Positions 15,263 to 57,947 are shown, counted from the first letter of the stretch. The stretch: DNA of 57,947 nucleotides from Armatimonadota bacterium (GCA_030649165.1 JAUSGG010000161.1:1-57947); one strand, 5' to 3'. Made by a program: numbers and translations. Notes: generated by a model from the sequence alone, not told the origin.

Positions 15263-15309
15263 GCGAAATCCTCCTTCGATGGATGTAGCCTGCTTAGGCC
15301 GCGTATCCA

Positions 15310-16053
<744 letters not shown>

Positions 16054-17900: not shown

Positions 17901-17952
17901 CGAACTAAACAACTACTCCGTCGATTTTGTTCGCTTACGAGCGCCTTGCGTT

Positions 17953-18014: not shown

Positions 18015-18722
18015 CTACGTGCCTCTTGTACGCATCGGAGGCATACCGGGAGCGGGAGTCGCGCCGGGGATTACCCCCGGGGTGCCCGCCGCCGGCGCCG
18101 CTCCGCCATACGTCGGAGCGCTCAGCGGCTGGGCCAGAACGCAAGTGACCTTGAAATCAAAGCCGCGTACCCTCGCCGGACGCACGATAACTACGCCTCC
18201 GCCGCGCGTCCCTGACGACCCGCCGCCTGAACCCGCATTGTACGCTGGAACTTCGGACATAGAGACCTGCGAAAACAGATCGGTCGCCCTGTAAAGATTG
18301 AGCAGGTACCGGCCCGCATCCGACAAGGAAGGCGCGTACGCCTCGATCTCCATCTGCGTGTCCGTCAGCGTAATGTTGCGGTAGCGGACCTTCTCATAAG
18401 TAAATCTCGTGAGGTCCTCATACAGCGCCGGGCCTCTCAGGTTATAGCTCATTACGTCTTCGATAAACTTGACTTTGCCGTTGATCGGATCGATCTTGGC
18501 CAGCTCTTCCTTCGCCCGGGTCTCGTTACTTATGACCTCGTTCTCCGTCATCTTAGCGCTTTCCAGTTCAACCCGCAGGTTTGCCAGCGCCGCGCCCCGC
18601 TGAATACGCCACGCCACGCCCGCCACGACAACGAATGCCAGCAGCGCGGCGAAGATGACCATCAGCCGGCGGACAACTTGACGCTCCAGGACGTATCCGG
18701 GCAGCAGGTTTATCTTGATCAT
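18015..18722 (-). CDS. pilN: PilN-like inner-membrane alignment protein
   Basis: The 235-aa protein begins MIKINLLPGY. The INLLP motif is the segment by which PilN tails bind the cytoplasmic groove of PilM. A membrane helix (about 20-41), a coiled coil (about 45-80) and a small alpha/beta domain (about 105-165) follow. The C-terminal third is low-complexity, with GGG repeats and a Pro/Gly/Ala tail ending RTRGT. It overlaps pilM by 4 bp, a classic coupled pair. With PilM and PilO it should form the inner-membrane alignment platform of the pilus. Confidence 0.92.
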   Translation of the reverse strand: MIKINLLPGYVLERQVVRRLMVIFAALLAFVVVAGVAWRIQRGAALANLRVELESAKMTENEVISNETRAKEELAKIDPINGKVKFIEDVMSYNLRGPALYEDLTRFTYEKVRYRNITLTDTQMEIEAYAPSLSDAGRYLLNLYRATDLFSQVSMSEVPAYNAGSGGGSSGTRGGGVVIVRPARVRGFDFKVTCVLAQPLSAPTYGGAAPAAGTPGVIPGATPAPGMPPMRTRGT

Positions 18723-20167
18723 GACAGCATATCCCTTACCGCCAGCCCTATGCTGACCGTAAACAAAGGCGATAGTTCGGACAGATATTGCGCGGAGTAT
18801 CGTTGAGATGTCACCGTGACGTTTCCTATCGGATCCGCGACCACGACCGGAATACCGAGCTCGTTCGCCAGAAACTTGTCCAGGTTGGGCAGCCGGGCCG
18901 TTCCGCCCGACAGCAGGATTGCCTCCGGCTGGTTTTGGTATCTGGTTCTGTAGTAATCCAGCGACAGGCGAAGCTGGCTGACCAGGTCGAGAAGCACCGG
19001 AGCGATAGCGTCTCCGACGCGCGTTCGCAGATCGCCCGCGTCCGCGGTCCCGGCGAAATCTTCCGGCTCGGCCTGCGCGCCGGGCGCGGGAGTCGGGGCC
19101 TCGTTCTCGTCGGACAGGTCAAATGTGGGAGCGACCGGCTCGAACGCGCTCTCCTCTCCGCCTAGATCGAATACCGGACCGTCCACCGTGTCCGTAAACT
19201 GTTTCGAGGCGGGTCCGGGCGTCCAATCGGACAGATCGAAAGGCGATGCCGGCGTTTCCTGAGCGGGCGACTCCTCTTCAGGAGCGGCGGGAGCAGGAGT
19301 GTCAAAGGGAGTCGGCGTCCCGTAGGCCGTGGCGCCGAAGTCCGGAGCCTCGTCCTGCGCGGGCTCCGCGGCCTCCATTCCCGTGGCGCCGGCCGCTATG
19401 CGTGACAGATCGACCTTTCCCAATTCCTTTTTCAGCCGTTCGGACTGGTTGAGGTCCTCGCCCAGGTCTTCACTGATGGCGCGAGTGATGTTCACTCCGG
19501 CCACAGCCATCGGCGGACTCGGAAAAGCGAGAAGGCCCTTCTCGAATATGCCCATGTCCGCGTTGACGTCGCCTATGTCCAGAATAGCTACTATGTGCTC
19601 TTTGGCCTCGGTGTCCGCCAGGTCGATCAAAGCTCGCCCGGCGGCCAGCGGCACTACGTCGATTGCCGTCAATTTCAGGCCCGCGGCCATGAGCGTCTCG
19701 ACGTGCCTGTCGATCATGTCCTGCTGCGCGACCGCCAGAAGCACTTCCATGTTCTGAGCGTCGGGGGCCTGGTCCGGCTTGTCGAGCGGCTGGAAGTCCA
19801 TCACCACTTCCGTCGGCGAGAACGGCACCTGCCGTTCGACTTCCCACTTCATCGTCTCGGCCATCTCGTCGCGAGTCATTTTCGGCACTTCGATCACGCG
19901 CAAAACAACTGACGATTGCCCCGATACCGCGCTGACGCACTGCCGGGCTTTTATCCCGTTCTCGTTCAGGAGCTTCTTGATATGCGCGCCCAACCCCGCC
20001 GGGTCTGTTATCACGCCGTTCTCGATCATGCCCTCGGGCGTGGGAGCGATGGCCAAGGCGCTGACCTGGACGCCGGTCCTGGTCGCTTTCGCTTCCACCA
20101 CTTTGATTGCCTGGGAGCCTATGTCGATGCCGACAACCGGCGTCCCTTTTTTGCTATTTAGAGACAT
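18719..20167 (-). CDS. pilM: PilM actin-like ATPase with a ~115-residue acidic insertion
   Basis: The 482-aa protein is PilM, a cytoplasmic actin-fold protein that binds PilN. It has GIDIGSQAIKVVEAK at 13-27, MKWEVERQVPFSPTEVVMDF, ILDIGDVNADMGIFEKG, and near the end ILLSGGTARLPNLDKFL. Usual PilM proteins have about 350 residues. The extra length is one acidic, Pro-rich insertion at about 262-378, containing three copies of a short motif (FDLSD at 310, FDLGG at 333, FDLSD at 349). All conserved blocks flank the insertion, so the fold should be intact. The start is ATG 20167, with only a weak GGGA upstream. Confidence 0.95.
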   Translation of the reverse strand: MSLNSKKGTPVVGIDIGSQAIKVVEAKATRTGVQVSALAIAPTPEGMIENGVITDPAGLGAHIKKLLNENGIKARQCVSAVSGQSSVVLRVIEVPKMTRDEMAETMKWEVERQVPFSPTEVVMDFQPLDKPDQAPDAQNMEVLLAVAQQDMIDRHVETLMAAGLKLTAIDVVPLAAGRALIDLADTEAKEHIVAILDIGDVNADMGIFEKGLLAFPSPPMAVAGVNITRAISEDLGEDLNQSERLKKELGKVDLSRIAAGATGMEAAEPAQDEAPDFGATAYGTPTPFDTPAPAAPEEESPAQETPASPFDLSDWTPGPASKQFTDTVDGPVFDLGGEESAFEPVAPTFDLSDENEAPTPAPGAQAEPEDFAGTADAGDLRTRVGDAIAPVLLDLVSQLRLSLDYYRTRYQNQPEAILLSGGTARLPNLDKFLANELGIPVVVADPIGNVTVTSQRYSAQYLSELSPLFTVSIGLAVRDMLS

Positions 20168-34076: not shown

Positions 34077-34082
34077 ACTGCA

Positions 34083-36541: not shown

Positions 36542-36625
36542 GCGGGGAGCAGTGGGCAGTGAACAGTGGGCAGTGAGCAGTGAGCAGTGAACAGTGAGCA
36601 GTGAGCAGTGAACAGTGAGCGGTGA
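36541..36625. repeat. Heptanucleotide array (GTGAGCA/GTGAACA), about 12 units, starting at the purC stop
   Basis: Units read GTGAGCG, GGGAGCA, GTGGGCA, GTGAACA and GTGAGCA. The array runs directly from the purC stop codon into the convergent gap before the next minus-strand gene. Confidence 0.85.
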
Positions 36626-36716
36626 GCGAGAGAGGCGCGTGTCGTTCAGGCTGACTTGACCACCCTCGCCGCATTCGCCTCCGGTCGGGGCCGATTCGAA
36701 CCTTCTACCGAGGATG

Positions 36717-37932: not shown

Positions 37933-40900
37933 CTACTGAATCCTGTCTACGCAGGAGGGTTGTTCGAGGTTGCCGCCGTTTTCGGTCACCTGCTTGAGAA
38001 TGAACTCCGGCGCCGGCGATACTTGGGTGGCGCGGATTCTGGGCGCGTACCACATTATCTGAAGGCCGTTTGAGTCGTTCTGCACCTCGAAGACCTCGCC
38101 GGAGAACTCCATGCCGAGGAAGGGCGGGCTGGGCTGGGTGGGGCCGCTGTAGCCGTTGGAGATAAGAATCCGGTCCGCGCCGACTATTTTCGCGCTGGTG
38201 GCGATCAGCGGGGCGTTCACGTTAGCGATCCCCTGGTCGCCGTCGGCGCTTCTGGGGAGTCTTCTGTACTGCTCCGACGTGAGCCACGTCCTAGCAATAC
38301 CGGCATCGCTTCTGACCTCGTAGACGCCGCTCGACGTGCACACGAGATCGTGCCAGGGGTCAGCGGCTACCCCCGTATAGGAGCGATGGAGATATCGGAG
38401 ACCGGCCAGAGGCTCGGAGTTCGTCGGTCCCAGACCGGTTATCGCTGTATAAAGCCCGGCGCCGCCGGGGACATTCTTCACGATGTCCCCGGTTTTCATA
38501 GCCACCGAGAAATCGTTGGGGTCCACGGTCCTGTAGTCCAAGAGGGCGACGGAGCCGCCGGTCTGCTGCGTCTGCGTCTGGTATGGCGAGTCGAAGATGC
38601 TGTAGTTGGAAATGGCGGCGAGGACGAACTGCCTGCCCATATCTGCCGGATGCGCCCATAGCTGAACGTTGCGGAACTCGTAGCGTTTGCCGAGTTCGAG
38701 GGTATGGCTGACCCAGTTGAGCTGCTGACCGGGAGGCACGAGCGCGCCCGTCGCGTCGTATTTATCCACGATATCGACTATCCTGTGGTTGCCGCCGTCG
38801 GCGACAAGGTGATGGAGGACGGAGAAGGTATCGCCTCCGATCTTCTCCATCCCTGCCCAGGCGTAGACGTCGGTCGGTCCGTTGAGCTGGAGAGGATCTC
38901 CGGGCCGCAGAAGGCCCTGGGGGTCCGAAAAGCTCGTCATCCACCAGGTAACGTTGCCCGACCTGTCGATACGCAGAATCTGGTTGTTGCCGGTGTCGGC
39001 CACGATATAGTCGCCGGAGTTCATGATCTTCGCCATCGCGGGACGGTTTATGGTCTGCAATTCCATTAGCTGACTGCCGCTGGAGGTGGTGGTGGGCTTG
39101 CTGATGGATTCGACGGTCCAGGTGACTTTGCCCCCACCATCCAGCTCGACCAGCCTGCGGTTATCGGCTACGAGGGTCAGCGGGTTGTCGAAGCCGTGGA
39201 TGCCGTCCGCCGCCACCACGCCCATAAGGCCGTTCGCGGCGGCAATCGAAGCCCTTGTCGGGCCGCTCGCGCGCTGCGTCGGCCCGCCGATGGGTTCGTT
39301 CCATCTGACGTGCTTGGTCAGGCTCTGGTCAGAGGCAGCGTACATCGGCGGCACGGAGAAGACCTGGCCGCCGTTCGTAACGCCAGTTTCAACGTCAACG
39401 GAGAAGATGTAGCCGTCATCGCATTGGAAGTAGACGTAATCGCCGACGACTACGGGCGGCGCGTGTATCCCGCCGCAAGGTTTGATGCCGTCGATAATAT
39501 CGTTGTGATAGGGCGCCATATACCAGAGCAGGTTGTTCCACTGGCCGAGGTCCACCTGGGACGATGGAAGCTGCACGCCGTCCACAAACACTATAACCGG
39601 CAGAGCGGGAGTTATGGGACACCTCGCGAAGCCGCTGGATTGTGGTGTAAGGGTCGAGAAGTCGGGTATGGAAATGGTCCCACGGTCGTAGTCGATCATC
39701 TGGGACGGCACACGCGCGGCGTCGTTCGGGAGCGACAGGTTGGCGCTGGGCGCAAAGAGCGGGTCGGGCTGCCAAATCCGGACATCGCGCTTGCGCCGGG
39801 TGTTCTGGTCCGTAAGCGGCTCGTGAATCCGGATGACCATGTCCGGTTTGGCCTTGAAGCAGAGCAGCGCGCCATTCGAGAAGGGGAGGTTCTTGCCGTC
39901 CGACCACGCGGTTACGAACAACTTGCCACCCGCAAGGGCGGGCGAGGGCGAAGGCTGGAGCCCGCGGATGGCGTATCCGACAGGCGAAGCGGGCGTACCG
40001 GGACCGATGAGGTCCCGGGTATGATCGAGGACCACTCCCGGGTGCGACATAACGCCCTCGTTAGTCCCGGCGTGCAACGGGTAACGCCATTTGAGGTCCC
40101 AGTGGGAATTGGCGGTGTTTCCGGCGTATCCGAGCTGGATGGACTGGACCTCGCCGACATTCAGGCCGCCGGGCGGACGTTGAGCGCAGAGGTAGACCAG
40201 CCCGTCGCGGCCCAGCGCGGGTGCGCCGTCAAGCGTCATGCCGCCGGGAGCGCCTGGAATCAATGTGAATTCGGGTCTCAGGGTATAAAAATCAATGTTC
40301 GGGCTGGCTCCATTACCGGGAGCGGGAAAATCGAGCCGGTAGTTGGCGTAGAGAATCCAGTCCGTCGGCGGGGGCGCGGTCCCCGATAGCTTGGTTACGG
40401 CGAAGCAGCCGACTCCGGGCTGGTTAGGCGATCCGTCCGTCGGTGGATTGGCGGGCGGCCAATTTATGCCACCGCCGGGAATGGGGACGCCGTCCGAGTC
40501 CGTCGCCCATACCTGGGGATAGTCCGGATTGGTCGTGTCTCCCCCGGCGTCAAAGATCCTGCGTCCTCTGAACATCGTGTCGTAGTAGCCGAGCGTGTTG
40601 GTTCCCGACCCGAACGTGCTGGGGGCCCGCAGACGTTCGTTCTTGATGGCCAGGCCGAGCGCCAGAATATGGTCATTCGGACCGCCTGTTTGATTGCCGT
40701 TCTGGTCGTGGGGCATCGCTTTTCCGGCAATGAAAGCGACATCGATGACGGCGCCGTTATCGTCGTTCTCGATGGTCCCGATGACGGGGGCGGACTTAAA
40801 CGCGTAGGTTGTAGACCCGGGCAGACTGCCTATAACGTTCGGGCATACCCAGGACGGGCCGGCAGGACTGTAACCACGGAATACGCCGTCCACTCCGGCC

Positions 40901-42387
40901 TGGTATATCCAGCCGTTGTGGAAAGCCAGCGGATGCGGAGGTTCCTTCGAGCCTGACGGCGGCAACGGAGTGGGCCAGGCTGGAAAATCCGAGGACCGCG
41001 GCGCTATTTGGACGGGTACACGGCCAAGAATACCGGGCGGTACTGTGGGAAACGCCTGCCACGCGCGCACCCAGCCGTCGCGGCTCTGCACAGCCACTAT
41101 CTCGAAGGAGTCTCCGCCCTCCAGCCTCACTTCGGCCACCATCGGCGCCGAACATGGCCCCCCGGCTGGGGCCCCGGCTGGGGCCGTCCAGATTGTGTCA
41201 AAGGGATCGCTGGCGTTATCGGGCACACCATCGTCAGGATTGCCGTCTCCGTCGAGGTCTTCGCCGGGCACGGCGTCCAGGGCGTATACCGTGCCGCGGC
41301 CGTCGGCGTAGAAGAAGACATTCTTATACAACACCGCGCTGGTTTCGAAGTCCGGTGGGCTGCCCAGCATCTTCCACCGCTCGATCATAGCGCCGCCCAA
41401 ATCCTCGATGGAGCCCGCGGCGCGCCGGACGTCTTTGCGGAAGGTCATCCACGAAGCCGACCAGTTGCAGATGTTGTAGGCGAGTTTGAGGTCGCCCGCG
41501 GGGGCGTAGGCGAGCCCGTCTCGCACGTTCCGGTTCGTCGTGTCCATACATCCAGAGCCCGGGGCGCCGACGCCGACGCTGATAGCCTCGCCGATACCCC
41601 CGGCCGTGGCCACAATCGCGCCGCTGCCGTAGTGCGCTCCCGCGACGTAGGCGAACTTATTACCCGGATCGCCGCTGTCGGGGATATTCTTCACGATCGG
41701 CAATAGGACGGTGGGCTCGGCGGCGCCGCCATTGCCGGCTATCGCTCCGACTTGCAGATAGCAGCCCTGGAGGCGCGCCGCGCCAAGCACGTTTATCTCT
41801 CCTTCGGTCACCCAGTAGGGAGCCGAGAGCAGAGGATGGTGGCGGGACATCACGCCGGCCGGAGGCGACCCACCGCCGGTGAAGAAATCGAAGCCCCGTA
41901 TGAAGAACGATCCGCCGAAAGGCTGGGTAATGCCGCCCACGGGCCGGTCGATCCACAGAACGCCGCCCGCGTCCACGAAATTCCGCAGCTTGAGAAGGTC
42001 TTCCGTGGTGAAAGCCATGCCGACGTTGGCGCAAAGGTAGAGCAGGTCGAACTTCAGGAGATTGTCCAGGACGGTGCGGCGGAGGCTGACCTTCCAGTAC
42101 GCCGAGCAGTTCTTGAAGCTCGATGTGGACAGTGGGTTGACGAATTCCCAGCCGCGGGGTTTAAGGTCGTACCGCTGGTCCATAATGAAGAAGACGAACG
42201 GATACGGCGCTATCTGCATCATAGCGCCCCCGAAGTCGGGGTCCGGCGTGACGCCGGGCAGCACGAGGACGCCGGCTTTGATCTCGCGCTTGGAGCTGGA
42301 GTAAAGGAAGCTGCCGGCGCAGGCGGGGGAGGCGCCGGCAGCGGCGATGCTTGCTGTTAGGAATATGATTGTCAGTCGTTTGACCAT
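37933..42387 (-). CDS. PilY1-like secreted PQQ/NHL propeller protein (about 1484 aa)
   Basis: A signal peptide (LTIIFLTASIAAAGASPACAG) opens the protein. A glutamine-amidotransferase/DUF4159-like domain (about 35-260) follows, with LLYLCANVG and LRNFVDAGGVLWIDRP. PQQ-type blades run from about 350, with FFYADGRGTVYALDAVPG followed by the calcium-loop-like EDLDGDGNPDDG, then GWIYQAGVDGVFRGYSP and FQCDDGYIFSVDVETG. NHL-type blades (VADTGNNQILRIDRSGNV, VADGGNHRIVDIVDKYD) come near about 1110-1190. It ends the pilV-pilW-pilX series, exactly where pilY1 stands in Pseudomonas. PilY1 is a calcium-binding propeller at the pilus tip; the equivalent role here is inferred from position and fold, not from overall similarity. 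Confidence 0.85.
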   Translation of the reverse strand: MVKRLTIIFLTASIAAAGASPACAGSFLYSSSKREIKAGVLVLPGVTPDPDFGGAMMQIAPYPFVFFIMDQRYDLKPRGWEFVNPLSTSSFKNCSAYWKVSLRRTVLDNLLKFDLLYLCANVGMAFTTEDLLKLRNFVDAGGVLWIDRPVGGITQPFGGSFFIRGFDFFTGGGSPPAGVMSRHHPLLSAPYWVTEGEINVLGAARLQGCYLQVGAIAGNGGAAEPTVLLPIVKNIPDSGDPGNKFAYVAGAHYGSGAIVATAGGIGEAISVGVGAPGSGCMDTTNRNVRDGLAYAPAGDLKLAYNICNWSASWMTFRKDVRRAAGSIEDLGGAMIERWKMLGSPPDFETSAVLYKNVFFYADGRGTVYALDAVPGEDLDGDGNPDDGVPDNASDPFDTIWTAPAGAPAGGPCSAPMVAEVRLEGGDSFEIVAVQSRDGWVRAWQAFPTVPPGILGRVPVQIAPRSSDFPAWPTPLPPSGSKEPPHPLAFHNGWIYQAGVDGVFRGYSPAGPSWVCPNVIGSLPGSTTYAFKSAPVIGTIENDDNGAVIDVAFIAGKAMPHDQNGNQTGGPNDHILALGLAIKNERLRAPSTFGSGTNTLGYYDTMFRGRRIFDAGGDTTNPDYPQVWATDSDGVPIPGGGINWPPANPPTDGSPNQPGVGCFAVTKLSGTAPPPTDWILYANYRLDFPAPGNGASPNIDFYTLRPEFTLIPGAPGGMTLDGAPALGRDGLVYLCAQRPPGGLNVGEVQSIQLGYAGNTANSHWDLKWRYPLHAGTNEGVMSHPGVVLDHTRDLIGPGTPASPVGYAIRGLQPSPSPALAGGKLFVTAWSDGKNLPFSNGALLCFKAKPDMVIRIHEPLTDQNTRRKRDVRIWQPDPLFAPSANLSLPNDAARVPSQMIDYDRGTISIPDFSTLTPQSSGFARCPITPALPVIVFVDGVQLPSSQVDLGQWNNLLWYMAPYHNDIIDGIKPCGGIHAPPVVVGDYVYFQCDDGYIFSVDVETGVTNGGQVFSVPPMYAASDQSLTKHVRWNEPIGGPTQRASGPTRASIAAANGLMGVVAADGIHGFDNPLTLVADNRRLVELDGGGKVTWTVESISKPTTTSSGSQLMELQTINRPAMAKIMNSGDYIVADTGNNQILRIDRSGNVTWWMTSFSDPQGLLRPGDPLQLNGPTDVYAWAGMEKIGGDTFSVLHHLVADGGNHRIVDIVDKYDATGALVPPGQQLNWVSHTLELGKRYEFRNVQLWAHPADMGRQFVLAAISNYSIFDSPYQTQTQQTGGSVALLDYRTVDPNDFSVAMKTGDIVKNVPGGAGLYTAITGLGPTNSEPLAGLRYLHRSYTGVAADPWHDLVCTSSGVYEVRSDAGIARTWLTSEQYRRLPRSADGDQGIANVNAPLIATSAKIVGADRILISNGYSGPTQPSPPFLGMEFSGEVFEVQNDSNGLQIMWYAPRIRATQVSPAPEFILKQVTENGGNLEQPSCVDRIQ

Positions 42388-42591
42388 AGCGGGACTCACT
42401 CTGATTTCAGATTTTAGATTTTCAAATTTCCAATTGCAGATTTCAGCGAGATAAGTTCAACCCTCACCCCAGCCCTCTCCCTTCCAGGGAGAGGGGGTTG
42501 CCCTCGGTTTAGTCGATTCGTTCTGCTCAGACCCCAGCCCAGCCCGGTTTAGAGGTTGGAAGTCGGTTGTGCCCTCGATTCTCTCTATTCT

Positions 42592-42655
42592 CCACTGCTC
42601 ACCGCTCACCGCTCACTGCTCACTGCTCACTGCTCACTGTTCACTGTTCACTGCC
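42592..42655. repeat. Heptanucleotide array after the PilX-like gene
   Basis: On the minus strand GGCAGTGAACAGTGAACAGT and onward gives about nine units. It starts 2 bases after the TGA stop of the PilX-like gene. The rest of the 269-bp gap to the PilY1-like gene holds a family B hairpin (42461-42496) and GATTTCA-like short repeats (42400-42445). Confidence 0.85.
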
Positions 42656-42656
42656 C

Positions 42657-45377
42657 TCAGACCGGTTGGCCGTAGAAGATGAGGGTTGGGCTGACGGGCA
42701 GGTTGGGCGTTATGGGCAGCGCGCGGCCGTAGCCGTCCACTCGCAAATACAGGTTTGTGTCGGGATCGCGCGGGCAGCCGATTATCTCGTCGTACATGAA
42801 ACTGATCCCCTGGCCGGGGTGCTTGGTCCCCGTGCTGGAGCTGCCGTACTTCTCCGGAATGCCGCACCATTTCGACGCCCACTCGCTTACGTCGCCGGCA
42901 GAGGCGGGCAGGTTCTCGGTTACGGCGCCGTTGAGCGTTATCTTTATGTCCAAAGGATCGCCGAAGTACGGGAACTCGTCTCTTGTGCCGAGGGGCCTGT
43001 AGCCGCGGCTCGGGCTCGTGAAGTTCTCCGGCGTGTCGTCGGGATTCGGGTTAAACCAGGGTCCGGGGATAACGAAGAATGACTTGTTCTGAGCGTAGAT
43101 AATCGCCTCGATAACGATGTCCATCGGCTGAATGACGAACCCGGACAGCAGATAGTTGTTCCGCGCGATGCTGGTCTGGTCCAGCCCGAGTTCCATAAGG
43201 TTCATATAGCCCGCGTCAGGCGTGAGGAGACCCACGGGGGCGTCAACTCCCGCGGCGGCCATATCGAGCCTGAAGACATTGTGCTCGAAGACCGTCCCGA
43301 TGCCGACACCGGGCGGCCCTCCCTGCAAAGGATCGGCGAGCCCGTACACCCAGCTCGGCCACGGCGGCGGCGGCGCGCCTATTGGGTAATTGTTGTACAG
43401 GCCGTAATTCACGTTGATATCATCGCCGCGGTTGACCCAGAGGTTGATATATGAACTGCCGTACTGCCCAGCGTGGCGAACGCAGAGGAACGGGCTGAAA
43501 CTGGTTCCGAGCAAGTAGTCCGCCGGACCGAAGGAAAACGCGCAGCGGAAGTTGCTGGACGGCTCAGGCGTGACTATCAGGTGGAACGGCGGCTCGCCCG
43601 TTTGCGGATCAGATCCTATGGAGGTGGGCCCGGTCTCTGTCAGCAGGCTGACAAATTGGGTAGTATTGATGCAGACATAATCCTCAGCGAGCAGCGAGAT
43701 CGCACATGTCGGGTCCGGGTTCAGGCGGACGTCCCGGCTCCTCCTTGGGTCGCGATACTTCAGAATATTGCCTTCGATATAAATGGTCGCGCCGGACACG
43801 ATGGTCAACTGCGCGTCGTGGCGGTTATCATGGGGCGGGTAGGCGTGTTTCTCAGGAGGCAGCATGCCCTTGATGCGTATGTTGCCCTCGGCGAATATGA
43901 CGCCGTTGGCGGGGTAGGGCATGTTGATGGTCTGGCCCCAGCCGGGCCGCGGATTTCCTTTCGGGTCGAGCCAGACGCGCTTGACGCCGCCCCGCTCGAC
44001 GTCGGTCCTGGTCAGGGTTATGTAGTAATCTTCGTATTTCTTGCCGTTGGTGTCTTCGAACTCTGTTTTCAAGTCCCCGTTAAAAGTGATCTGCACGCCG
44101 GGCGGGACGTAGAAGGGGCCGCGCCAATAGGGTGACATCTCATTATTGGCCCTCATCCAGTCGGCCCTGAGCGTTCTGCCGCCGATAAGGGTTTCGCTCT
44201 CCCCCTGAACGTCACTGAAGTTGTCTACGTAGAGTCCGCGCCCCCAGCCGAAGAACCCGCTATTCAGGCCGGTGTAGTTTCCGCCATCGTCCTTGAGCCA
44301 TTCGCCGGAATTGCGGGTGAGCGCGCGGTATCGCATGGTTTTCGACGATTGGAGGAAGAGGTCGAGCAGCGGGGCCTCGATACGCCTGATGGCGCGGGGC
44401 CGCTTGCTGGGGAGAGGTTCGGGGTCGTCCGAACCATCGCGGTAGAAGCCGTAGAAGGTGTCAAAAGCGCCTGTGCTGGGAGGAACGTCACTGAGGTCCG
44501 GCGGGAAAGACGCATCCACCGGTTGAGTGTCGATTCTGTGGAGGTTAACGATGGTTCTGCCGCTCGGAAGGTCGGCGTGACTGATTTCACCGGCGACATC
44601 CACGGTATCTATGGGCAGCGGGGGGACGGGATCTGTGGGACGAGCGGGAGTGTTGGCCACTGACCGCAGATAGATATCGACCGACTTGCCATTCCAGACG
44701 AGGTTTCCGTTTACCCTGATCGGGGCGCCGTTGCCTTGATCTCCGAATTTCACGTCAAACCCGGGGAAGCCGAGATCGATCTGGGTAGCGCGTTTTTCCT
44801 TGTTGGTAACGAAGCGGCAGTAGTCGGTGACGCCGATGGGCTTGTATGCGGTCATCTCGTAACGCAGCAAATGCTTGGACGCGATGGCCATCGTGGTGGG
44901 GTCGGTCCGGTCCACGGCGCCGATACGACCGATGGATTCGATCTTGATGTACTTGGAGAGCGGGTCCCGCGGGTCCGGGTTGTATGACACGCGCAGCAGG
45001 AACCGGCCCTGGCCCGAGCTGATGCGGGAGAAGCGCTCGTTGAGAGGCAGGTAGACCCATTTGCCGTCCGGATCGTTCGGGTAGAGAGCCGCGGGAGCCG
45101 CAATAGTCGCAAACTCCGGCTCGGGCCGCCAATCGGCGCCCTCTTCGCTCCGGGTGAGCATCATGTCCGCGTATTCGATGCCGGCGCGCGCGAGCTGCTC
45201 GACCTTGAGCATTTCGCTGGAACGCCCGGCGCGAAAGAGGTTGCGGGTGACCATAGCGATGAAGATGACTCCGAGGAAGCTGAGCAGGAACATTATGACG
45301 ATGGCGAGGATAAGGGATTGGCCGCGACGATTGGAAGTTGAATGTTGAAGGTTGAAGGTTGAATGAGCGTTCACCAC
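42657..45377 (-). CDS. PilX-like giant minor pilin with DUF4900-like region (906 aa)
   Basis: The leader ends NRRG, followed by QSLILAIVIMFLLSFLGVIF, a class III-like N-terminal helix without Glu at position +5 (Leu instead). A long body follows, with a DUF4900-like stretch (GVIFAEGNIRIKG, LTIVSGATIYIEGNI, ISLLAEDYVCINTT) that suggests a beta-solenoid. Usual PilX proteins have under 250 residues. The closest parallel I know in size is ComZ of Thermus, a large tip pilin with an inserted beta-solenoid that binds DNA. GTG 45377 follows GTGAGG, which is the end of the upstream gene; the first 16 codons overlap a GTTGAAG heptad array. Confidence 0.85.
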   Translation of the reverse strand: MVNAHSTFNLQHSTSNRRGQSLILAIVIMFLLSFLGVIFIAMVTRNLFRAGRSSEMLKVEQLARAGIEYADMMLTRSEEGADWRPEPEFATIAAPAALYPNDPDGKWVYLPLNERFSRISSGQGRFLLRVSYNPDPRDPLSKYIKIESIGRIGAVDRTDPTTMAIASKHLLRYEMTAYKPIGVTDYCRFVTNKEKRATQIDLGFPGFDVKFGDQGNGAPIRVNGNLVWNGKSVDIYLRSVANTPARPTDPVPPLPIDTVDVAGEISHADLPSGRTIVNLHRIDTQPVDASFPPDLSDVPPSTGAFDTFYGFYRDGSDDPEPLPSKRPRAIRRIEAPLLDLFLQSSKTMRYRALTRNSGEWLKDDGGNYTGLNSGFFGWGRGLYVDNFSDVQGESETLIGGRTLRADWMRANNEMSPYWRGPFYVPPGVQITFNGDLKTEFEDTNGKKYEDYYITLTRTDVERGGVKRVWLDPKGNPRPGWGQTINMPYPANGVIFAEGNIRIKGMLPPEKHAYPPHDNRHDAQLTIVSGATIYIEGNILKYRDPRRSRDVRLNPDPTCAISLLAEDYVCINTTQFVSLLTETGPTSIGSDPQTGEPPFHLIVTPEPSSNFRCAFSFGPADYLLGTSFSPFLCVRHAGQYGSSYINLWVNRGDDINVNYGLYNNYPIGAPPPPWPSWVYGLADPLQGGPPGVGIGTVFEHNVFRLDMAAAGVDAPVGLLTPDAGYMNLMELGLDQTSIARNNYLLSGFVIQPMDIVIEAIIYAQNKSFFVIPGPWFNPNPDDTPENFTSPSRGYRPLGTRDEFPYFGDPLDIKITLNGAVTENLPASAGDVSEWASKWCGIPEKYGSSSTGTKHPGQGISFMYDEIIGCPRDPDTNLYLRVDGYGRALPITPNLPVSPTLIFYGQPV
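45336..45368. repeat. Heptanucleotide array (GTTGAAG) inside the PilX-like leader
   Basis: GAAGTTGAATGTTGAAGGTT and onward shows four 7-base units on the plus strand; the minus strand encodes STFNLQHSTS in the prepilin leader. A related noncoding array is at 56841-56860. Confidence 0.85.
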
Positions 45378-45379
45378 AG

Positions 45380-47047
45380 TTACCTCACCGTATTCCGCAC
45401 GCGCAATTTGTTGCTCAACTCGGTAGCGAACATCTTTCTGGAGACGGGATCGAAAAGCCTCACGCCGAAGGTTACGGTGATGAGGTTTTTGGTCGTATAG
45501 TCCGCCCTGACGATGTCGCCCTGCGCGTTGTTGTGGAACTTGTAGCTTATGGCCACGGTTATGTTATCGGAGTTGACCGTATCCTCCGGCAGTTTTTCGA
45601 GACCGGATGGGAACCAAATCTCCCCGGTTTCATAGTCGATCTTGTACTGGTTCAGGCCCGGCCTGCCGCCGAGCGCAAGTGGTATCCGCTGATAGCGCAC
45701 CGTTCGCGGCAGCGGAGAGGCCGGGTCCTGGTCGCGCCAGCGGATGGGGGTCTGGTCCGGCCCCATGATCTCCTCGCTTCCGGGCACGATCCGGGCGTTG
45801 GATCCCCAATTGGTCTGAATCGGGAGTTGATAGTATCCGCCGTTCCCATTTATATCATACGTGGTCAGAAGCGGCTCTGAAGCGGCAAAGACGAAGCGCA
45901 CCTCGCCGGTATTCTCCACCACGTCGAGCATCAGCTTCTGGTCATCCGCCACGCCCGCGGGGACAGCCGCCGCGAGGTTGCGGGACCTCCTGTACTCGTC
46001 TATGTTGAAGACGGCGGTGGGTGTTCCGCTGTAGAGCCACAGCCACATGTCGTTGCCGGAGGGCTGGGTGTAGTAGGTGGCGCTGAAGTTCCTTGCATAA
46101 TCCCTTCTATATACAAACACTTTGTAGTCCGGCGTCCAGTGGCCGTTAACGGCGCGGAAGACGGTCGGGATGGCCGTAGGGGTCTCGGCATCGGTATCGT
46201 TGAGGTAAGTGGGCGAGAGCGCGTCGTTCTCCACAGCCGTGGGGGTAAACCTGACGGACGAGGTGGCGACGGTTCCGCTTTCCGTAAAAACCACGAGGTT
46301 GGCGTTCCTGGCCGGACCGACGATACGGCTGATCCTTTTCCACGCGGCAGAGTACTGCGGATCGTAGAAGAAATCGGCATAGTTCAGCTGGTAGCTGCCA
46401 TCTAGCCGCTTCGGGAGCAAGTCGTTGCCTGGGTTCTCAGGGTCAGACCATGCCTTGAACTCGGCCCTGTACAGGACGTAAGTGTTGTTCTCCGGCGAGG
46501 GCGCGGTCTTGTCTTCGAAGTTATTGCTGTAAGGCTTCTGGGGATCCATCAGCCCGATGAAATAGCGGACTATACGCCGCGAGGGCATCATCGGCTGGAC
46601 GGGCCTCGCGGTGACTTCGGTGGATTTGCAGATCGGGCAAGACGGCCATGCCTCCTCGCCGGGCCAGTTGGGGTCGTCGCTGTCGCGCTCGTAGTCGCGG
46701 GGCTGATCGGACGGATGGGCGGGATTGTCGCAATGCATCATCATCCGCGGCATGACGAGGTCTATCTTGCCGTACGGCAGCGCAACGGTCGCGGTCATGG
46801 CCGTCGCTCCGGGGGGCACTACGTCGATCGGCGCGGAGTTGTCGTACACGAACATTGCGCCGGACAGTTCCCTGCTGACCCTCTCCAGGTTGAGACGCGC
46901 GGCGTCCTGGGCCTCGATCTTGACCCGGCCCTGGCGCGTCAGGTTGAGCGCCGCTATCATCGGCGTGAACAGCAGGCCGAAGAGCAGTATGGTGATCGCG
47001 ACTACGACCAGTATCTCTATTAAGGTAAAGCCGTGTTCGTTTCGCAT
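45380..47047 (-). CDS. PilW-like oversized minor pilin (555 aa)
   Basis: The prepilin start MRNEHG/FTLIEILVVVAIT has the G/F cleavage site and Glu at +5 (Glu11). The body carries two Cys clusters (MHCDNPAH and SCPICKST, about 108-148) that may bind zinc, several beta-rich segments, and near the C-terminus the module YKIDYETGEIWFP...VAISYKF. Usual PilW proteins have about 200-300 residues. It stands between the PilV-like and PilX-like genes with 1-2 bp spacing, so all three are translated together. PilD (51431-52297) should process it. Confidence 0.87.
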   Translation of the reverse strand: MRNEHGFTLIEILVVVAITILLFGLLFTPMIAALNLTRQGRVKIEAQDAARLNLERVSRELSGAMFVYDNSAPIDVVPPGATAMTATVALPYGKIDLVMPRMMMHCDNPAHPSDQPRDYERDSDDPNWPGEEAWPSCPICKSTEVTARPVQPMMPSRRIVRYFIGLMDPQKPYSNNFEDKTAPSPENNTYVLYRAEFKAWSDPENPGNDLLPKRLDGSYQLNYADFFYDPQYSAAWKRISRIVGPARNANLVVFTESGTVATSSVRFTPTAVENDALSPTYLNDTDAETPTAIPTVFRAVNGHWTPDYKVFVYRRDYARNFSATYYTQPSGNDMWLWLYSGTPTAVFNIDEYRRSRNLAAAVPAGVADDQKLMLDVVENTGEVRFVFAASEPLLTTYDINGNGGYYQLPIQTNWGSNARIVPGSEEIMGPDQTPIRWRDQDPASPLPRTVRYQRIPLALGGRPGLNQYKIDYETGEIWFPSGLEKLPEDTVNSDNITVAISYKFHNNAQGDIVRADYTTKNLITVTFGVRLFDPVSRKMFATELSNKLRVRNTVR

Positions 47048-47048
47048 A

Positions 47049-48794
47049 TCAAAGTTCCGTCGGCAGCCGCGTGAGCGACGAATCCAGGTCCACGTGGAGC
47101 CACCGTTCCTTGTCCTGCCGGGACCGCCAGAGCGCCCGGGCCTTCACGGACACGCCGACGACGGAGACGATCTCCGCCGGGACCTGGTTCAGGTTTATAA
47201 AGCAAAAGCCGGGAGGGACGGTTTCCGCCGATATCTGGTGCGTCTCGCCGGCCTGGGTTTTGAGGTCGGCGGCGTTCCATTTATAAGTCACGGCGACGGT
47301 TTTACCTGCTTCGCACGGACTGAAGTAGAGCGTTGGACCGCTGACCATGAATTGCTTATGAATCATGGTGTAAGGAACCGTGTAGGCGCGCTCGGAGTAC
47401 TGCTCGTACGCCTTGTGGAGCTGCACGGACCAGTCGTTTTCCGCCTGATAGTAGAACCGAAGGTTTCTGCCGGCGATGTTATCGCTCTTTGGTTCTTCAT
47501 TCGGATCCGGCATCATTACGGTTACGACGCCGTTGGGTGGGAACTCGATCGTGCCGGTCTTGTGGTCGATGGAATAGGAAGCGGGATCGATCTTCGCTCC
47601 GGTCCCGGGGTTGACAACGAGCACGTCCGGGACTACGAGGCCGGACCCGAAATCGACGGCCATCTTGCCGTCTCCGAGCCCACGATAGATGGAGCCGTCG
47701 GTCTGGGCCGTCTCCCCCCGCTGCTTTATATAGCGCAGAGTGAGCTTGACTTTGTACGGCGCGGACCGCGGGACCATCCGATCTTCGTGCATTATCTGCG
47801 GGTTGAGCAATTCGTAGGTTATATGAGCTTCAAGCGCGCGCGCGCCCTGCTCGGTGGTCTCCTGGTATGAATGACCGGCGGGGTTGAAGGCGAGCATCCC
47901 GACGACGGCCAAGGGGAGGTTCGTCGAATCTATCAGCTTGTACTCGTAGGGATCAGGGGGATCGATGCTCCAATTCTCGTTCAGCGCCAGGTACTTGAAA
48001 CCTCTGGCGACGGTCTCGCTGCCCTCGTCGATTACTGCCTTGGGATCGAGATCGCCGCCGTTCTCGTCCGGTAGCGAGATCCACTGATCCCCGCCCGAAA
48101 CAGGCACGGGCCGCGCTATCACCTGCCGCAGTTGAGCGGGAGCGCCGCTTATGTAGTAGGAGTAGCTGATGTTGTAAGTTACCTTCTGCCCCACGGCGAT
48201 CTGGGGGAAGCAGATCATCCTGGCGGAGTAGTCTATTGCATAGCGGGTACCGAGCCAGCGCGCGGGATCGGGTTCGTCCTCTTTATCCAGCCTTATTCCG
48301 CGCATATTGCCGCCGTAGACGCTAATGTTGCCGGGGACATCGCGGGCGTCATCATCCTTGATCCAAGTGGCGCTGATAGGGCTGAAGCCGAGGACGTAAA
48401 TCGACGCGACGTCGTCTCCGCCGGGCAGGTCGAGATATGTCCCGACGGGCACGCGCGTTACCTCGCCGACGATCTGGCGAAAGGCGGTCGCGTTCGTGTC
48501 GTTCATCGGAGGGCCTGGGAGCATGTAGGGGTCGGGGTCGAGCACGCCGTCCCCATCGATATCCCGGAGGGCCAGAACGCCTTCAGGGAGATTGGCGGCG
48601 TGGTTCTTCCAGAACTCCATTTCCTGCTGGGCGAGACGGCCTGCTATGCTGACGTTTTCGGCGTGACGGAGGGAGGCGTTGCCGGCCGGATAGGACCGCA
48701 GCACGACCAGGATGCCGACCACTAGTACAACCATGACCACGAGCACTTCGATCAAGGAAGTGCCCGCTCGTTCCCGCAGATGTCCGGAGGTCAT
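47049..48794 (-). CDS. PilV-like oversized minor pilin (581 aa)
   Basis: The start MTSGHLRERAG/TSLIEVLVVMVVLVVGI is a prepilin signal with Thr at +1 and Glu at +5 (Glu16), the TSLIEVLV pattern common in PilV. Next comes RLAQQEMEFWKN, then a calcium-loop-like DIDGDGVLDPD (about 77-87). The body has repeated beta modules of the IDYxxGxIxF type (YAIDYSARMICFPQ and YSIDHKTGTIEFPP). The usual length of PilV is under 200 residues. It is the first gene of the minor-pilin operon after a 496-bp gap containing two copies of one hairpin. Confidence 0.87.
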   Translation of the reverse strand: MTSGHLRERAGTSLIEVLVVMVVLVVGILVVLRSYPAGNASLRHAENVSIAGRLAQQEMEFWKNHAANLPEGVLALRDIDGDGVLDPDPYMLPGPPMNDTNATAFRQIVGEVTRVPVGTYLDLPGGDDVASIYVLGFSPISATWIKDDDARDVPGNISVYGGNMRGIRLDKEDEPDPARWLGTRYAIDYSARMICFPQIAVGQKVTYNISYSYYISGAPAQLRQVIARPVPVSGGDQWISLPDENGGDLDPKAVIDEGSETVARGFKYLALNENWSIDPPDPYEYKLIDSTNLPLAVVGMLAFNPAGHSYQETTEQGARALEAHITYELLNPQIMHEDRMVPRSAPYKVKLTLRYIKQRGETAQTDGSIYRGLGDGKMAVDFGSGLVVPDVLVVNPGTGAKIDPASYSIDHKTGTIEFPPNGVVTVMMPDPNEEPKSDNIAGRNLRFYYQAENDWSVQLHKAYEQYSERAYTVPYTMIHKQFMVSGPTLYFSPCEAGKTVAVTYKWNAADLKTQAGETHQISAETVPPGFCFINLNQVPAEIVSVVGVSVKARALWRSRQDKERWLHVDLDSSLTRLPTEL

Positions 48795-49290
48795 CCCCAG
48801 TTTACTCCTGAATACTCCTGAGTCCCTCCAGGTAAGATACCTGGAGGGATAGGAAAGGTCATTACGATTTCAGATTTCAGACCTCGGATTAACCCCACCC
48901 CAACCCTCCCCTGAATGGGGAGGGGGCAGGTTGCGCCCGCGGCGCGCCGGCTTGCTTACACCGATTGGTACGACTAAAGGACAAAGGCAAATGTTCCTCT
49001 TTGACTGCCCCCCACGATGGCAGAGCGCGCTTCGGGACGAAAAGCGTGTCCCGAAGCATAGGTAATACCCCTGAGTCCCTCCAGGTAAGATACCTGGAGG
49101 GATAAAGACGGTCTCCCGGGACCGGTCCTGAGTATTCGTGAGGTTAAAGCCTCACGCTGCCTGGTTCAAGCATGCTAAAGCAAGCTATGGACGTTTCCTT
49201 CGGCAGGCGCGCCACAGGACGTTGCCACGGACATCGGACTGGTCAGACGGATCGGACCGATCAGACGGATACAACAGATTGGACTAAGCC
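48795..49290. repeat. Noncoding gap with a duplicated hairpin, family B and family E repeats
   Basis: The perfect hairpin CCCTCCAGGTA-AGA-TACCTGGAGGG occurs at 48824-48848 and again at 49077-49101 with identical flanks (CCTGAGT before, ATA after). Between them are a family B copy (48891-48930) and a hairpin GCTTCGGGAC...GTCCCGAAGC (49030-49057). An inverted family E copy lies at 49138-49187. No gene is supported. Confidence 0.8.
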
Positions 49291-51430: not shown

Positions 51431-51434
51431 CTAC
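51338..51434. repeat. 25-bp tandem repeat (three units) plus GGGCGAAC hairpin (family D)
   Basis: Three units begin CGAACACAGTGGTACTATGT and differ only in the last bases. They run into CGAACACAAGGTTCGCCCCTAC, an inverted repeat with arms GGGCGAAC/GTTCGCCC. The pilD stop codon is the CTA of that last unit. Other family D copies stand at 53704-53735, 54904-54932 and 54951-54983. Confidence 0.85.
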
Positions 51435-52297
51435 CTCGGCATCATGTAGCCCATGTAGGCGCTTATGATCCGCGAGCCCAGGAATATGACTACAAACGCG
51501 CCGGTGACCATCATAGGCCCAAACGGCACGTAGCTTTTGAACTCGCGGCGCATCGCGCGCATGACCAGCATCCACGCTATGCCGATAACACTGCCGAGCG
51601 CCACCGCGACAAAGAAGGAGAGCAGCGCGAGACTGATCGGCAGGTTCGCGCCTATTGCCGCGGCCAGTTTTATGTCCCCACCGCCCATTGCCTCCTTCTT
51701 GAACGCCAACTCGCCGAAAACGGCAATTGCGTAAAAGATCGCTCCGCAGATCACGATGCCGACGATCGATTGAAGCATAGGGAACGATGCCGTCGTGAAC
51801 GGCACGGGGATGGTCAATACCGGTTTGAAGAACACGGCCTCCGGGTGGCCGACCTCGATCAGAGCCAGGGCCGCCAGATCGTGCGCAACCCCCACGACGA
51901 TACCGAAGATATTCAACTGGTCGGGTATGATCCAGTGCTCCAGATCGACGAAGAAGGCGGCGATAAGGGCGGACCCGAACAGGGCGAAGGTGAAGAACTC
52001 CAGCCGCCAGCCGTAGTAGTAAACCAGCGCAATGTAAAACAGGCCGGTGAGCAACTCGACGCCGAAGTACCGCCAGCTAATCGGCGCGCCGCATCTGGCG
52101 CATTTCCTGCCCAACAGGAGATAGCTGAACAGCGGGATGAGTTCCCACGCCCTGAGCTTACCGTCGCAGTTGGGGCAGTGAGAGGGCGGACGGATGATGG
52201 ATTGGTCTCTCGGCATACGCCAAATGCAAACGTTCAGGAAGCTGCCGACCACCGTCCCATAGATGAATGCGATGGCGGCGCTCAGGTAGAAGGGCAT
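51431..52297 (-). CDS. pilD: Prepilin peptidase/N-methyltransferase (A24 family)
   Basis: The 288-aa polytopic protein has the N-terminal GSFLNVCIWRMP and a zinc ribbon (CPNCDGKL and CARCGAPIS) required by methyltransferase-type PilD. The two catalytic aspartates are in FFVDLEHWIIPD and GGGDIKL. About eight membrane segments follow the family pattern. It cleaves the leader peptides of all five prepilin-like proteins in this operon and methylates the new N-terminus. It starts 3 bp after the pilC stop codon. Confidence 0.96.
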   Translation of the reverse strand: MPFYLSAAIAFIYGTVVGSFLNVCIWRMPRDQSIIRPPSHCPNCDGKLRAWELIPLFSYLLLGRKCARCGAPISWRYFGVELLTGLFYIALVYYYGWRLEFFTFALFGSALIAAFFVDLEHWIIPDQLNIFGIVVGVAHDLAALALIEVGHPEAVFFKPVLTIPVPFTTASFPMLQSIVGIVICGAIFYAIAVFGELAFKKEAMGGGDIKLAAAIGANLPISLALLSFFVAVALGSVIGIAWMLVMRAMRREFKSYVPFGPMMVTGAFVVIFLGSRIISAYMGYMMPR

Positions 52298-52300
52298 ACG

Positions 52301-53524
52301 TTATCCTCCACCCGCCTCCGTTAGTTTGTTGACAACCGCGACAAGCGGCAGGAACATGGAGATGACGATGAACCCGACCGCTCCTCCAAGACAGATGATC
52401 ATGACCGGCTCGATCGCGGCGGTAAGGCTCTCCAGAGCGGCGTCCACTTCCGCCTCGTAGAAGTCGGCGATCTTGGAGAGCATTGGGTCCAAAGACCCGG
52501 ACTCTTCGCCGATGGAGATCATCTGCACGACCATGGGCGGAAAGATCTTGCTCTTCTGCAGCGGCTCGCCGATCTTGTCTCCTTCGCGAATTCTCGCTCT
52601 GGCCTCGAGTATGGCGTCGCCGATAATCTGATTCGCCACGGCCCCGGCCACGGTCTCAAGCGCCTGCAGGATCGGCACGCCGCTCTCAAGAAGCGTGCCG
52701 AGCGTTCTGGAGAAACGGGCCAGCGCGACTTTATGGTTGAGTTTGCCGAATACAGGCGCCTGCAGTTTTATCCTATCGTATATGCGAGTCCCGACGCGAG
52801 TCCTGATGAAAATGCGGAACGCGATAACGAACAGTATCACGAAGGCCAGCATGTAGTACCATTGCTGAAGCAGGAAGTTACTGAATCCCATAAGTATCTG
52901 AGTAGGGGCTGGAAACTCATCGACGCCCAAGTCCTTGAACAGCGTCATGAACTTGGGCAGGATGAACGTCACAAGGAGAAGCACGATGGCGACGGCTACC
53001 ACGGCGATGATGGTCGGATAGGTCATTGCCGACTTAACTTTGCGGCGCAGCTTCTGGTCCGATTCCAGGAACTGTGACAGTCTCTGAAGGCTTTCCTCCA
53101 GCACTCCACCGACTTCACCCGCGCGGATCAGCCCGATAAACAGGCTGTTGAACACGTTAGGGTATTTCTGCAGAGCGCGAGACAGCGTCTGACCGGCTTC
53201 AACTTCCGATTGAATGTCGGCAATGATACGTTTCAGTTTCGGGTTGGTGGTCTGCTCGCCCAAGACCTCCAGGCACCGGACGAGCGAGACGCCGGCGTCG
53301 ATCATCGTGGAGAACTGACGGCAGAAGATCGCCAGGTCGTTGAGCTTAACACGTCCGAGGCCGCTTGCCGCGGACTTGGCCCTTGCCTTGGTCTGTTTGA
53401 TCTCCGAGACATCGAAGCCCTGTTCGCTGAGCCGGCGCCGCAGGATGGTCTCGTTCTCAGCCTCTGACGTTCCCTGCATCACCTGGCCGGTTGCGTCACG
53501 TACCGTATAAGCGTAGTTTGGCAT
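52301..53524 (-). CDS. pilC: PilC/GspF inner-membrane platform protein
   Basis: The 407-aa protein begins MPNYAYTVRDATGQVMQG, the usual PilC opening. It has two repeated T2SF domains (about 70-195 and 275-400), each with FxxxLxxLLxxGVxxxxAL-like segments (FCRQFSTMIDAGVSLVRCLE and FSRTLGTLLESGVPILQALE). Membrane helices lie near 170-195, 220-245 and 375-400. It anchors the motor ATPases PilB and PilT. ATG 53524 follows GTGAGG; an upstream in-frame start reads through GGTTGTC heptad repeats and is less likely. Confidence 0.95.
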   Translation of the reverse strand: MPNYAYTVRDATGQVMQGTSEAENETILRRRLSEQGFDVSEIKQTKARAKSAASGLGRVKLNDLAIFCRQFSTMIDAGVSLVRCLEVLGEQTTNPKLKRIIADIQSEVEAGQTLSRALQKYPNVFNSLFIGLIRAGEVGGVLEESLQRLSQFLESDQKLRRKVKSAMTYPTIIAVVAVAIVLLLVTFILPKFMTLFKDLGVDEFPAPTQILMGFSNFLLQQWYYMLAFVILFVIAFRIFIRTRVGTRIYDRIKLQAPVFGKLNHKVALARFSRTLGTLLESGVPILQALETVAGAVANQIIGDAILEARARIREGDKIGEPLQKSKIFPPMVVQMISIGEESGSLDPMLSKIADFYEAEVDAALESLTAAIEPVMIICLGGAVGFIVISMFLPLVAVVNKLTEAGGG

Positions 53525-53537
53525 GTTCGGGCACCTC

Positions 53538-53575
53538 ACATGGTTGTCGGTTGTTAATTGTTGGTTGTCGGCCAA
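53538..53575. repeat. Heptad repeat (GGTTGTC/GGTTGTT) upstream of pilC
   Basis: Reading TGGTTGTCGGTTGTTAATTG and onward, four 7-base units are seen on the plus strand. A family B copy (53645-53682) and a family D hairpin (53704-53735) fill the rest of the gap to pilT. Confidence 0.65.
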
Positions 53576-53731
53576 AACTACCGACAACACAATCAACTTA
53601 GCCTTCACCCTCACCGGATTTAGAAGTTAGAGGTTGGATAGGCTCAACCCCACCCCAGCCCTCCCCTAAATGGGAGGGAGCAACCGTCCGCCTGGTTCAG
53701 TCGCCTGGGCGAACACAAGGTTCGCCCCTAC

Positions 53732-56895: not shown

Positions 56896-57759
56896 TCAGC
56901 GCGCGCTCATTTCCTCCAACACTGCGTTCTCCATTGTCTCTACCGGCGGGTCGATGCCGGTCCACATTTTGAATGAGGCCGCCCCCTGGTAAACCAGCAT
57001 TTTCAGCCCGCATATCGCCGTCGCTCCGGCCTTTTCGGCCTCGGCGATCAGTTTCGTTCGAAGCGGGTTGTAAACGAGATCGTAGACGAATAATCCCGAA
57101 TGGAGCAAATCCTCCGGGCAGGGAACGGCATCCGTATCCGGCCACATGCCGACTGACGTACAGTTGACCAGCAGGTCCGCCCCTTCGACAGCTTCTCTCA
57201 AACTATCCGGTCTCAGCGATGTGGCCCGCACGCTGTCCGGCGAAGTCACTTCGTTGATCCGCTTCGCCAGTTCCTCTCCGCGCTCGACCGTGCGGTTCGC
57301 CACAACGACAGACGCGCCGTGAGTCACCAGGGCATATAACACTGCCCTGGCCGAACCTCCGGCGCCGATTACGACGGCTTTCTTGCCTCTGACATCGGCT
57401 CCGGCCGCGCTGAGCGCCTGCATGAAACCTCTGCCGTCAGCGCTCTCGCCGAGCAGCCGTCCATCCCTGTTGATTATCGTATTGACCGATCCGATGAGCC
57501 TTGCTTCATGCGATATCTCATCGAGAAACGGGATCACGTTTTCCTTATGCGGGATCGTTACGTTGACCCCAACTATACCGAGCGCCCTTATGGCGCGGAC
57601 CGCGCTCTCCAGGTCCGCGGGGTCAACGTCGAAAGCGAGATAAGCGTAATCCAGACCGAGCTCTCTCAGCGCAGCGTTGTGCATCACGGGGGACAGGCTG
57701 TGTCCTATCGGGTGGCCGAACACTCCCAGAAGCCTTGTGTGTCCTGTTATGCGCTTCAA
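56896..57759 (-). CDS. aroE: Shikimate dehydrogenase
   Basis: The predicted 287-aa protein starts at TTG 57759, behind AAAGGAG. It has GHPIGHSLSPVMHNAAL, the catalytic lysine in NVTIPHKENV, the NADP site VVIGAGGSARAVLYALV, NRTVERG and the C-terminal GLKMLVYQGAASFKMW. It reduces 3-dehydroshikimate in the shikimate pathway. It overlaps the yqeG stop by 3 bp (TTG over TGA). The yqeG-aroE pair is known in Firmicutes; here it heads the pil motor cluster. Confidence 0.95.
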   Translation of the reverse strand: MKRITGHTRLLGVFGHPIGHSLSPVMHNAALRELGLDYAYLAFDVDPADLESAVRAIRALGIVGVNVTIPHKENVIPFLDEISHEARLIGSVNTIINRDGRLLGESADGRGFMQALSAAGADVRGKKAVVIGAGGSARAVLYALVTHGASVVVANRTVERGEELAKRINEVTSPDSVRATSLRPDSLREAVEGADLLVNCTSVGMWPDTDAVPCPEDLLHSGLFVYDLVYNPLRTKLIAEAEKAGATAICGLKMLVYQGAASFKMWTGIDPPVETMENAVLEEMSAR

Positions 57760-57947
57760 GCTCGCTCCTTTCTTTCTGACTGCGACGGCTTCGGCTTTGT
57801 TCCCAGCAATCCCTTTCTGCGGAGCCAGAAAAGAAGCAGCCACTCCACGATCCGGCTGAGTTTGGTGCCGATGAACTCGCGTGGGTGCATCGGTGGGACA
57901 AGAATGGTGTAAAGCCCTGCCCTGTTGCCGCCGAAAATGTCGGTCAG
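57756..57947 (-). CDS. yqeG: YqeG family HAD-IIIA phosphatase, C-terminal part (cut by the window edge)
   Basis: The 63 residues in frame begin LTDIFGGNRAGLYTILVPP and continue HPREFIGTKLSRIVEWLLLF, then a basic tail RRKGLLGTKPKPSQSERKER. The TDIFGGNRAGLYTILV stretch is the hallmark C-terminal motif of YqeG proteins. The N-terminal HAD aspartates lie beyond the window. It would be the first gene of the yqeG-aroE-pilB series. Role in other bacteria: HAD-like phosphatase, some members acting on phosphatidylglycerophosphate. Confidence 0.85.
   Translation of the reverse strand: MTDIFGGNRAGLYTILVPPMHPREFIGTKLSRIVEWLLLFWLRRKGLLGTKPKPSQSERKERA

Follow-up and report, generated by a model that had tools for sequence, protein, structure and literature searches.

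Giant PilV-, PilW- and PilX-type proteins with a PilY1-like propeller protein across Armatimonadota: a probable T4aP priming and tip complex of unusual size

Four giant genes in a pil cluster

The window, by which we mean the whole stretch of 57,947 nucleotides analysed here, carries on its minus strand four giant genes, referred to below as V, W, X and Y (Table 1). They are collinear and separated by only a few bases, with the exception of a 257-base gap between X and Y, and they continue the run aroE-pilB-pilT-pilC-pilD-pilin-pilin. A class III prepilin leader and an N-terminal hydrophobic helix are present in V (...RAG/TSLIEVLVVM, the slash marking the end of the leader), W (...EHG/FTLIEILVVV) and X (...RRG/QSLILAIVIMF), while Y is 1488 aa long when counted from a GTG and 1484 aa when counted from an ATG at codon 5. 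A first-pass annotation of this DNA had described four consecutive giant genes, the first three with prepilin N-termini, and we found these open reading frames to be real, with the coordinates, sizes, order and N-termini that it gave. It overlooked, in the same window, a fifth giant gene (Z) and the genes pilM, pilO-like and pilQ.

Table 1. Genes and repeats of the window in the order in which the minus strand is read; coordinates are counted from the first letter of the window.
Feature	Coordinates	Strand	Basis
aroE, first gene of the cluster	56896..57843	(-)	Pfam Shikimate_dh_N; adjoins pilB in relatives too
pilB, extension ATPase, 582 aa	54991..56739	(-)	TIGR02538 647.7 bits, slightly under cut-off 675.65
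pilT, retraction ATPase, 413 aa	53732..54973	(-)	TIGR01420 490.9 bits, cut-off 319.1
pilC, platform protein	52301..53614	(-)	PilC/GspF models
pilD, prepilin peptidase	51431..52297	(-)	PF06750 and PF01478 above cut-off
Dispersed repeat GGCGAACACAAGGTTCGCCCCTAC	51335-51445, 53708-53742, 54905-54997		between pil genes
p6, GspG-like pilin, normal size, 287 aa	50225..51088	(-)	N_methyl above cut-off; TIGR01710 E 1.6e-12
p5, GspG-like pilin, normal size, 263 aa	49291..50082	(-)	N_methyl above cut-off; TIGR01710 E 4.1e-13
Palindrome CCCTCCAGGTA-NNN-TACCTGGAGGG, two copies	48811-48860, 49064-49113		between p5 and V
V, PilV-type oversized minor pilin, 581 aa	48794-47049	(-)	G/TSLIEV leader; TIGR02523 at residues 10-60
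W, PilW/GspJ-type oversized minor pilin, 555 aa	47047-45380	(-)	G/FTLIEI leader; N_methyl above cut-off
X, PilX/GspK-like giant without Glu5, 906 aa	45377-42657	(-)	G/QSLILA leader; conserved GADWRPxP
Y, secreted DUF4159-PQQ-NHL propeller protein, PilY1-like position	42399-37933	(-)	PQQ_2, NHL, DUF4159; signal peptide
Intergenic arrays of 7-base units	42593-42654, 36538-36627, 32663-32730, 4711-4803		CAGTGAA/GTGAGCA type
Region between Y and Z	28376-36541	mostly (+)	hom-, thrC- and purC-like genes; 934-aa membrane protein
Z, secreted propeller protein, 2395-aa ORF	27521-20334	(-)	Golvesin_C above cut-off; PQQ-type propeller repeats
pilM	18719..20167	(-)	PF11104 above cut-off
pilO-like	17118..17912	(-)	position only, same place in relatives; no Pfam match
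pilP-like	16138..16950	(-)	position only, same place in relatives; no Pfam match
253-aa protein with long glycine-rich repeat	15310-16071		just before pilQ; position kept in some relatives
pilQ, secretin	13559..15313	(-)	PF00263 and PF03958 above cut-off

The T4aP machine parts PilB, PilT, PilC, PilD, PilM and PilQ were all found, PilB slightly below its equivalog cut-off. Downstream, the order in the window is Z, then pilM, genes in the places of pilN, pilO and pilP, the secretin gene pilQ, and aroB. Two further secretin genes lie elsewhere in the genome (G000, contigs C207:11093-11590 and C217:337-828), and therefore more filament or secretion machines may exist.

Several repeats are interspersed with these genes. 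The perfect palindrome between p5 and V was considered as a cluster-specific regulatory hairpin, an idea that was dropped because the palindrome occurs at 49 exact sites in the genome, which identifies it as a dispersed REP-like hairpin; an Rfam search with it gave no match. Arrays of 7-base units occupy intergenic positions, and the dispersed repeat that lies between pil genes runs into the start of pilT, the called start of which is therefore probably over-long.

Sequence and predicted structure of V, W, X and Y

The likeness of V to PilV lies at its N-terminus: V scores 24.0 bits against the PilV model TIGR02523, for which the cut-off is 52.2, and the same model matches V in 21 of 22 relatives, at the N-terminus only and below the cut-off. 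W is matched by PilW/GspJ-like N-terminal models in 21/22 relatives, below their curated cut-offs, and N_methyl exceeds its cut-off in W while its match to V stays below. Among relatives, Glu5 is present wherever V was found and in every W but one with a mis-called start. X, on the other hand, has a leader that ends in G or A before Q and lacks Glu5 in all relatives except one mis-called start, and PilX and GspK are likewise without Glu5 (PMC7541494). X shows no consistent family match in Pfam or NCBIfam, no family match for the window copy and no PilX_N (PF14341) in any of 29 relatives; its GADWRP motif is kept in 29/29 aligned relatives. A wide alignment of X contained no stretch conserved enough for a public scan, and a narrower X alignment was used.

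The AF2 models of W (mean pLDDT 85.4, pTM 0.76) and X (mean pLDDT 81.8, pTM 0.86) are confident, and both have a long N-terminal helix (residues 9-62 and 21-76, respectively) and a body that is mainly beta. When these models were compared with the PDB by Foldseek, no pilin was among the matches listed for either protein, those listed for X being weak CBM-like beta-sandwich matches and unrelated ones. A Foldseek comparison of W with viral models returned nothing usable, and the sequence profiles of V, W and X found nothing in the PDB beyond pilin helices. Judged by its strand pattern, W may be a pilin that has taken up a large insertion and ends in a PilW-like ...LRVRN tail, and X may be partly a solenoid into which a sandwich is inserted.

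The short module Y-x-ID-xx-G-x-I-x-F occurs two to three times in V and is also present in W, Z and some Y proteins. An HMM built from V alone matches W (best 4.6e-5) and Z (5.1e-6), with no shuffled protein below 0.02; since the instances had been selected by pattern, a module common to V, W, Z and some Y is suggestive only.

Y had been annotated as a signal-peptide PQQ/NHL propeller. In the window copy NHL exceeds its cut-off, PQQ_2 (E 2.9e-6) falls just under its own, and the start is signal-peptide-like, as it is in 41/41 Y proteins. Similarity to DUF4159 is weak in the window copy. Among the relatives of Y scanned with Pfam, DUF4159 was found in 17/24, NHL in 10/24 and PQQ_2 in 8/24, and in the PDB the Y profile finds propellers, both designed and natural, as well as BamB.

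The proposed identity of Y with PilY1 fares less well. PilY1 proteins are defined by the PF05567 propeller, with an N-terminus that is variable (PMC13190605, PMC8179133). This C-terminal propeller domain was absent by Pfam from the window copy and from all relatives (0/24), an absence that rests on the scan of Y and its relatives, since a whole-genome search was empty with its controls blank too. Y is therefore PilY1-like in position and layout but fails the sequence test that defines PilY1, and its N-terminal module is DUF4159-like where other systems have vWFA or DUF4114. An EF-hand-like calcium site is present in the PilY1 propeller (PMC13190605). Of 41 Y relatives, 30 carry a loop of the EF-hand type (33 matches vs 0.75 in shuffles), which lies at residue 381 in the window copy; through this loop Y may bind calcium.

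Spread across the phylum and a fifth giant gene

Relatives of X were found in 141 of 151 same-phylum genomes (112/116 good genomes) and relatives of Y in 115 (96/116 good genomes). The phylum was named Armatimonadota by a separate scan, in which the family turned up in Chthonomonadales, Fimbriimonadales and MAGs labelled Abditibacteriota, among others. We read 40 loci from many families and recognised all four genes in 38, V being unrecognised in the other two. In each of these 38 the order V-W-X-Y is kept on one strand, mostly with small gaps or slight overlaps between the genes and with Y directly after X in the minor-pilin cluster. A chance cluster is thereby excluded, and a read-through artefact was dropped because lengths are conserved among relatives.

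Median lengths in relatives are 640 aa for V, 665 for W, 1000 for X and 1592 for Y, the range for Y taking in one copy truncated by the end of its contig. Such lengths are the phylum's rule and not a freak, with the window copies on the small side, and the view of the mass as exceptional for this organism is not supported. Among V, W, X and Y the pairwise distances show mutual correlations of 0.87-0.90, and of 0.74-0.82 with those of PilC; shared ancestry alone would account for much of this.

Among the best 80 of 118 confirmed stretches in the X-family scan, titles name Armatimonadota groups or unnamed bacteria, with one exception (L110). This is a MAG titled Propionibacteriaceae (UBA6122) that carries an X relative at 43% identity and is probably a mislabelled Armatimonadota genome. 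No X relative was found among plasmid records. In a literature search that lay outside subscription journals and preprints, we found no description of minor pilins of this kind in Armatimonadota; the Fimbriimonas genome paper counts pil genes and pseudopilins only (PMC4072686).

The signal peptide of Z, the fifth giant, lies ~130 codons into the ORF, with a likely start at about codon 127. Z relatives were detected in 66/151 genomes, probably an undercount. Twenty regions around or downstream of Z were fetched, and in the 18 of them in which Y and Z could be placed on one contig, Z always directly follows Y, with a gap of at most about 0.2 kb except in G074, where it is about 1.6 kb. As for the remainder, Y and Z are on separate contigs in G130, and no full Y gene was read in G148; both regions are among the 12/20 regions in which pilM follows Z, and in many relatives Z precedes pilM-N-O-P-Q. 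In the window Z lies ~10 kb from Y and still adjoins pilM. The ~10 kb between them looks like an insertion or rearrangement, and we infer an older order, aroE-pilB-T-C-D-pilin-V-W-X-Y-Z-pilM-N-O-P-Q-aroB, that was broken in this lineage. Z, the neighbour of Y in most relatives, would most likely belong to the same surface assembly as V, W, X and Y.

Likeness to known systems and a proposed tip complex

The closest parallel is found in T4aP priming and tip complexes, namely M. xanthus clusters 1-3 and P. aeruginosa fimU-pilVWX-pilY1, which share with our set the order of PilV-, PilW-, PilX- and PilY1-type genes, the prepilin leaders, a PilX without Glu5 and, as far as the sequence of Y tells, a PilY1-type protein with a type I signal peptide, a variable N-terminal module and a propeller (PMC7541494, PMC13190605). 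In M. xanthus the minor pilins and PilY1 make up the priming and tip complex (PMC7541494). Unlike in these known systems, V, W and X of Armatimonadota are several times the usual size, and their cluster is continuous with pilB-T-C-D and, in many genomes, with Z-pilM-N-O-P-Q as well.

Oversized minor pilins already have precedents in ComZ (PMC6561018) and in modular pilins (PMC8179133). ComZ of Thermus thermophilus is a GspK-like minor pilin with a beta-solenoid of ~380 residues and a proposed pilus cap (PMC6561018). X is similarly GspK-like at its start and then mainly beta, but it is larger and accompanied by enlarged V, W and Y, and ComZ was not among the sequence or Foldseek matches listed for X. 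Modular pilins, of which over 1,200 have been reported (e.g., S. sanguinis PilB), carry a large functional module on a pilin, and the N-termini of PilC/PilY1 vary as modular pilins do (PMC8179133). While the extra domains of modular pilins are known ones, V, W and X match no known module, and here three neighbouring genes are enlarged together across a phylum. One further likeness is to the Verru_Chthon cassette (NCBIfam TIGR02596, TIGR02598, TIGR02599), with W matching its protein C in 21/22 relatives and V its protein B in 4/22, in the N-terminal region only and far below cut-off; X has no match in the cassette. To our knowledge, T4aP tips studied so far consist of small minor pilins and one PilY1. 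The features that appear to be new are the enlargement of all members together, the phylum-wide conservation of the set, a different stand-in for PilY1, and Z.

Taken together, V, W, X and Y are best explained as a T4aP minor-pilin/PilY1-type priming and tip complex whose subunits are several times larger than usual, a reading to which we assign a probability of roughly 0.7. The pilV-pilW-pilX-pilY1-type reading had been proposed in the first-pass annotation, and it is sustained by the PilV match of V, the PilW/GspJ-like W, X without Glu5, the secreted propeller Y and the pilB-T-C-D start of the cluster. A wider version is more tentative: Armatimonadota could possess a five-protein tip of V, W, X, Y and Z of roughly 600 kDa (~5,900 residues here), in which Z would be without counterpart in known T4aP tips and a DUF4159-PQQ-NHL protein would replace PilY1.

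Alternatively, V, W and X could be GspI-J-K-type pseudopilins of a type II-like secretion system, with Y and Z as its secreted substrates, which we regard as unlikely. The extension ATPase obtains almost equal scores with the GspE and PilB models, Armatimonadetes are reported to have a T2SS (PMC6668835), contact of GspK with T2SS substrates has been proposed (PMC7541494), and Y and Z carry signal peptides with no further hydrophobic segment; however, a pilT_fam ATPase lies well above cut-off within the operon, PilM exceeds its cut-off and Y occupies the pilY1 position of T4aP clusters. The presence of PilT in the operon is the reason why a retractile pilus is favoured over a T2SS pseudopilus. 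Lower still we rank the improbable case that V, W and X are tip pilins while Y and Z, though encoded in the operon, stay off the pilus as free or cell-surface proteins. Against such a separation speak the position of Y after X at every locus read, that of Z after Y in all testable relatives and the mutual correlation of the V, W, X and Y distances, even though Y is without the PilY1 domain, known tips contain no counterpart of Z, which in this genome lies apart from Y, and fewer genomes have Y relatives than X relatives.

Returning to the T4aP priming and tip complex, by analogy with M. xanthus (PMC7541494) V, W, X and Y would start pilus assembly and remain at the tip, their docking, assembly order and adhesion being likewise putative. 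PilD would cleave V, W and X, whose helices would come together in the inner membrane into a GspI-J-K-like wedge in which X, the member without Glu5, is outermost. Y, exported by Sec and perhaps calcium-binding, would dock on X; between PilX and PilY1 a strand complementation has been predicted (PMC13190605). With the addition of major pilin by PilB the cap would be pushed out via PilQ, and PilT would retract it. Together with the DUF4159 and propeller parts of Y, the added beta-rich bodies of V, W and X would then form a large adhesive or sensing head.

If the set does form the tip, the cap retained by an entire phylum is several times heavier and includes a different propeller protein and probably a fifth partner. 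This would bear on the size of cap that is able to pass PilQ, on the gain of adhesive modules by pilus tips and on which components the priming complex cannot do without. The isolates Chthonomonas calidirosea and Fimbriimonas ginsengisoli bring the tip reading within experimental reach.
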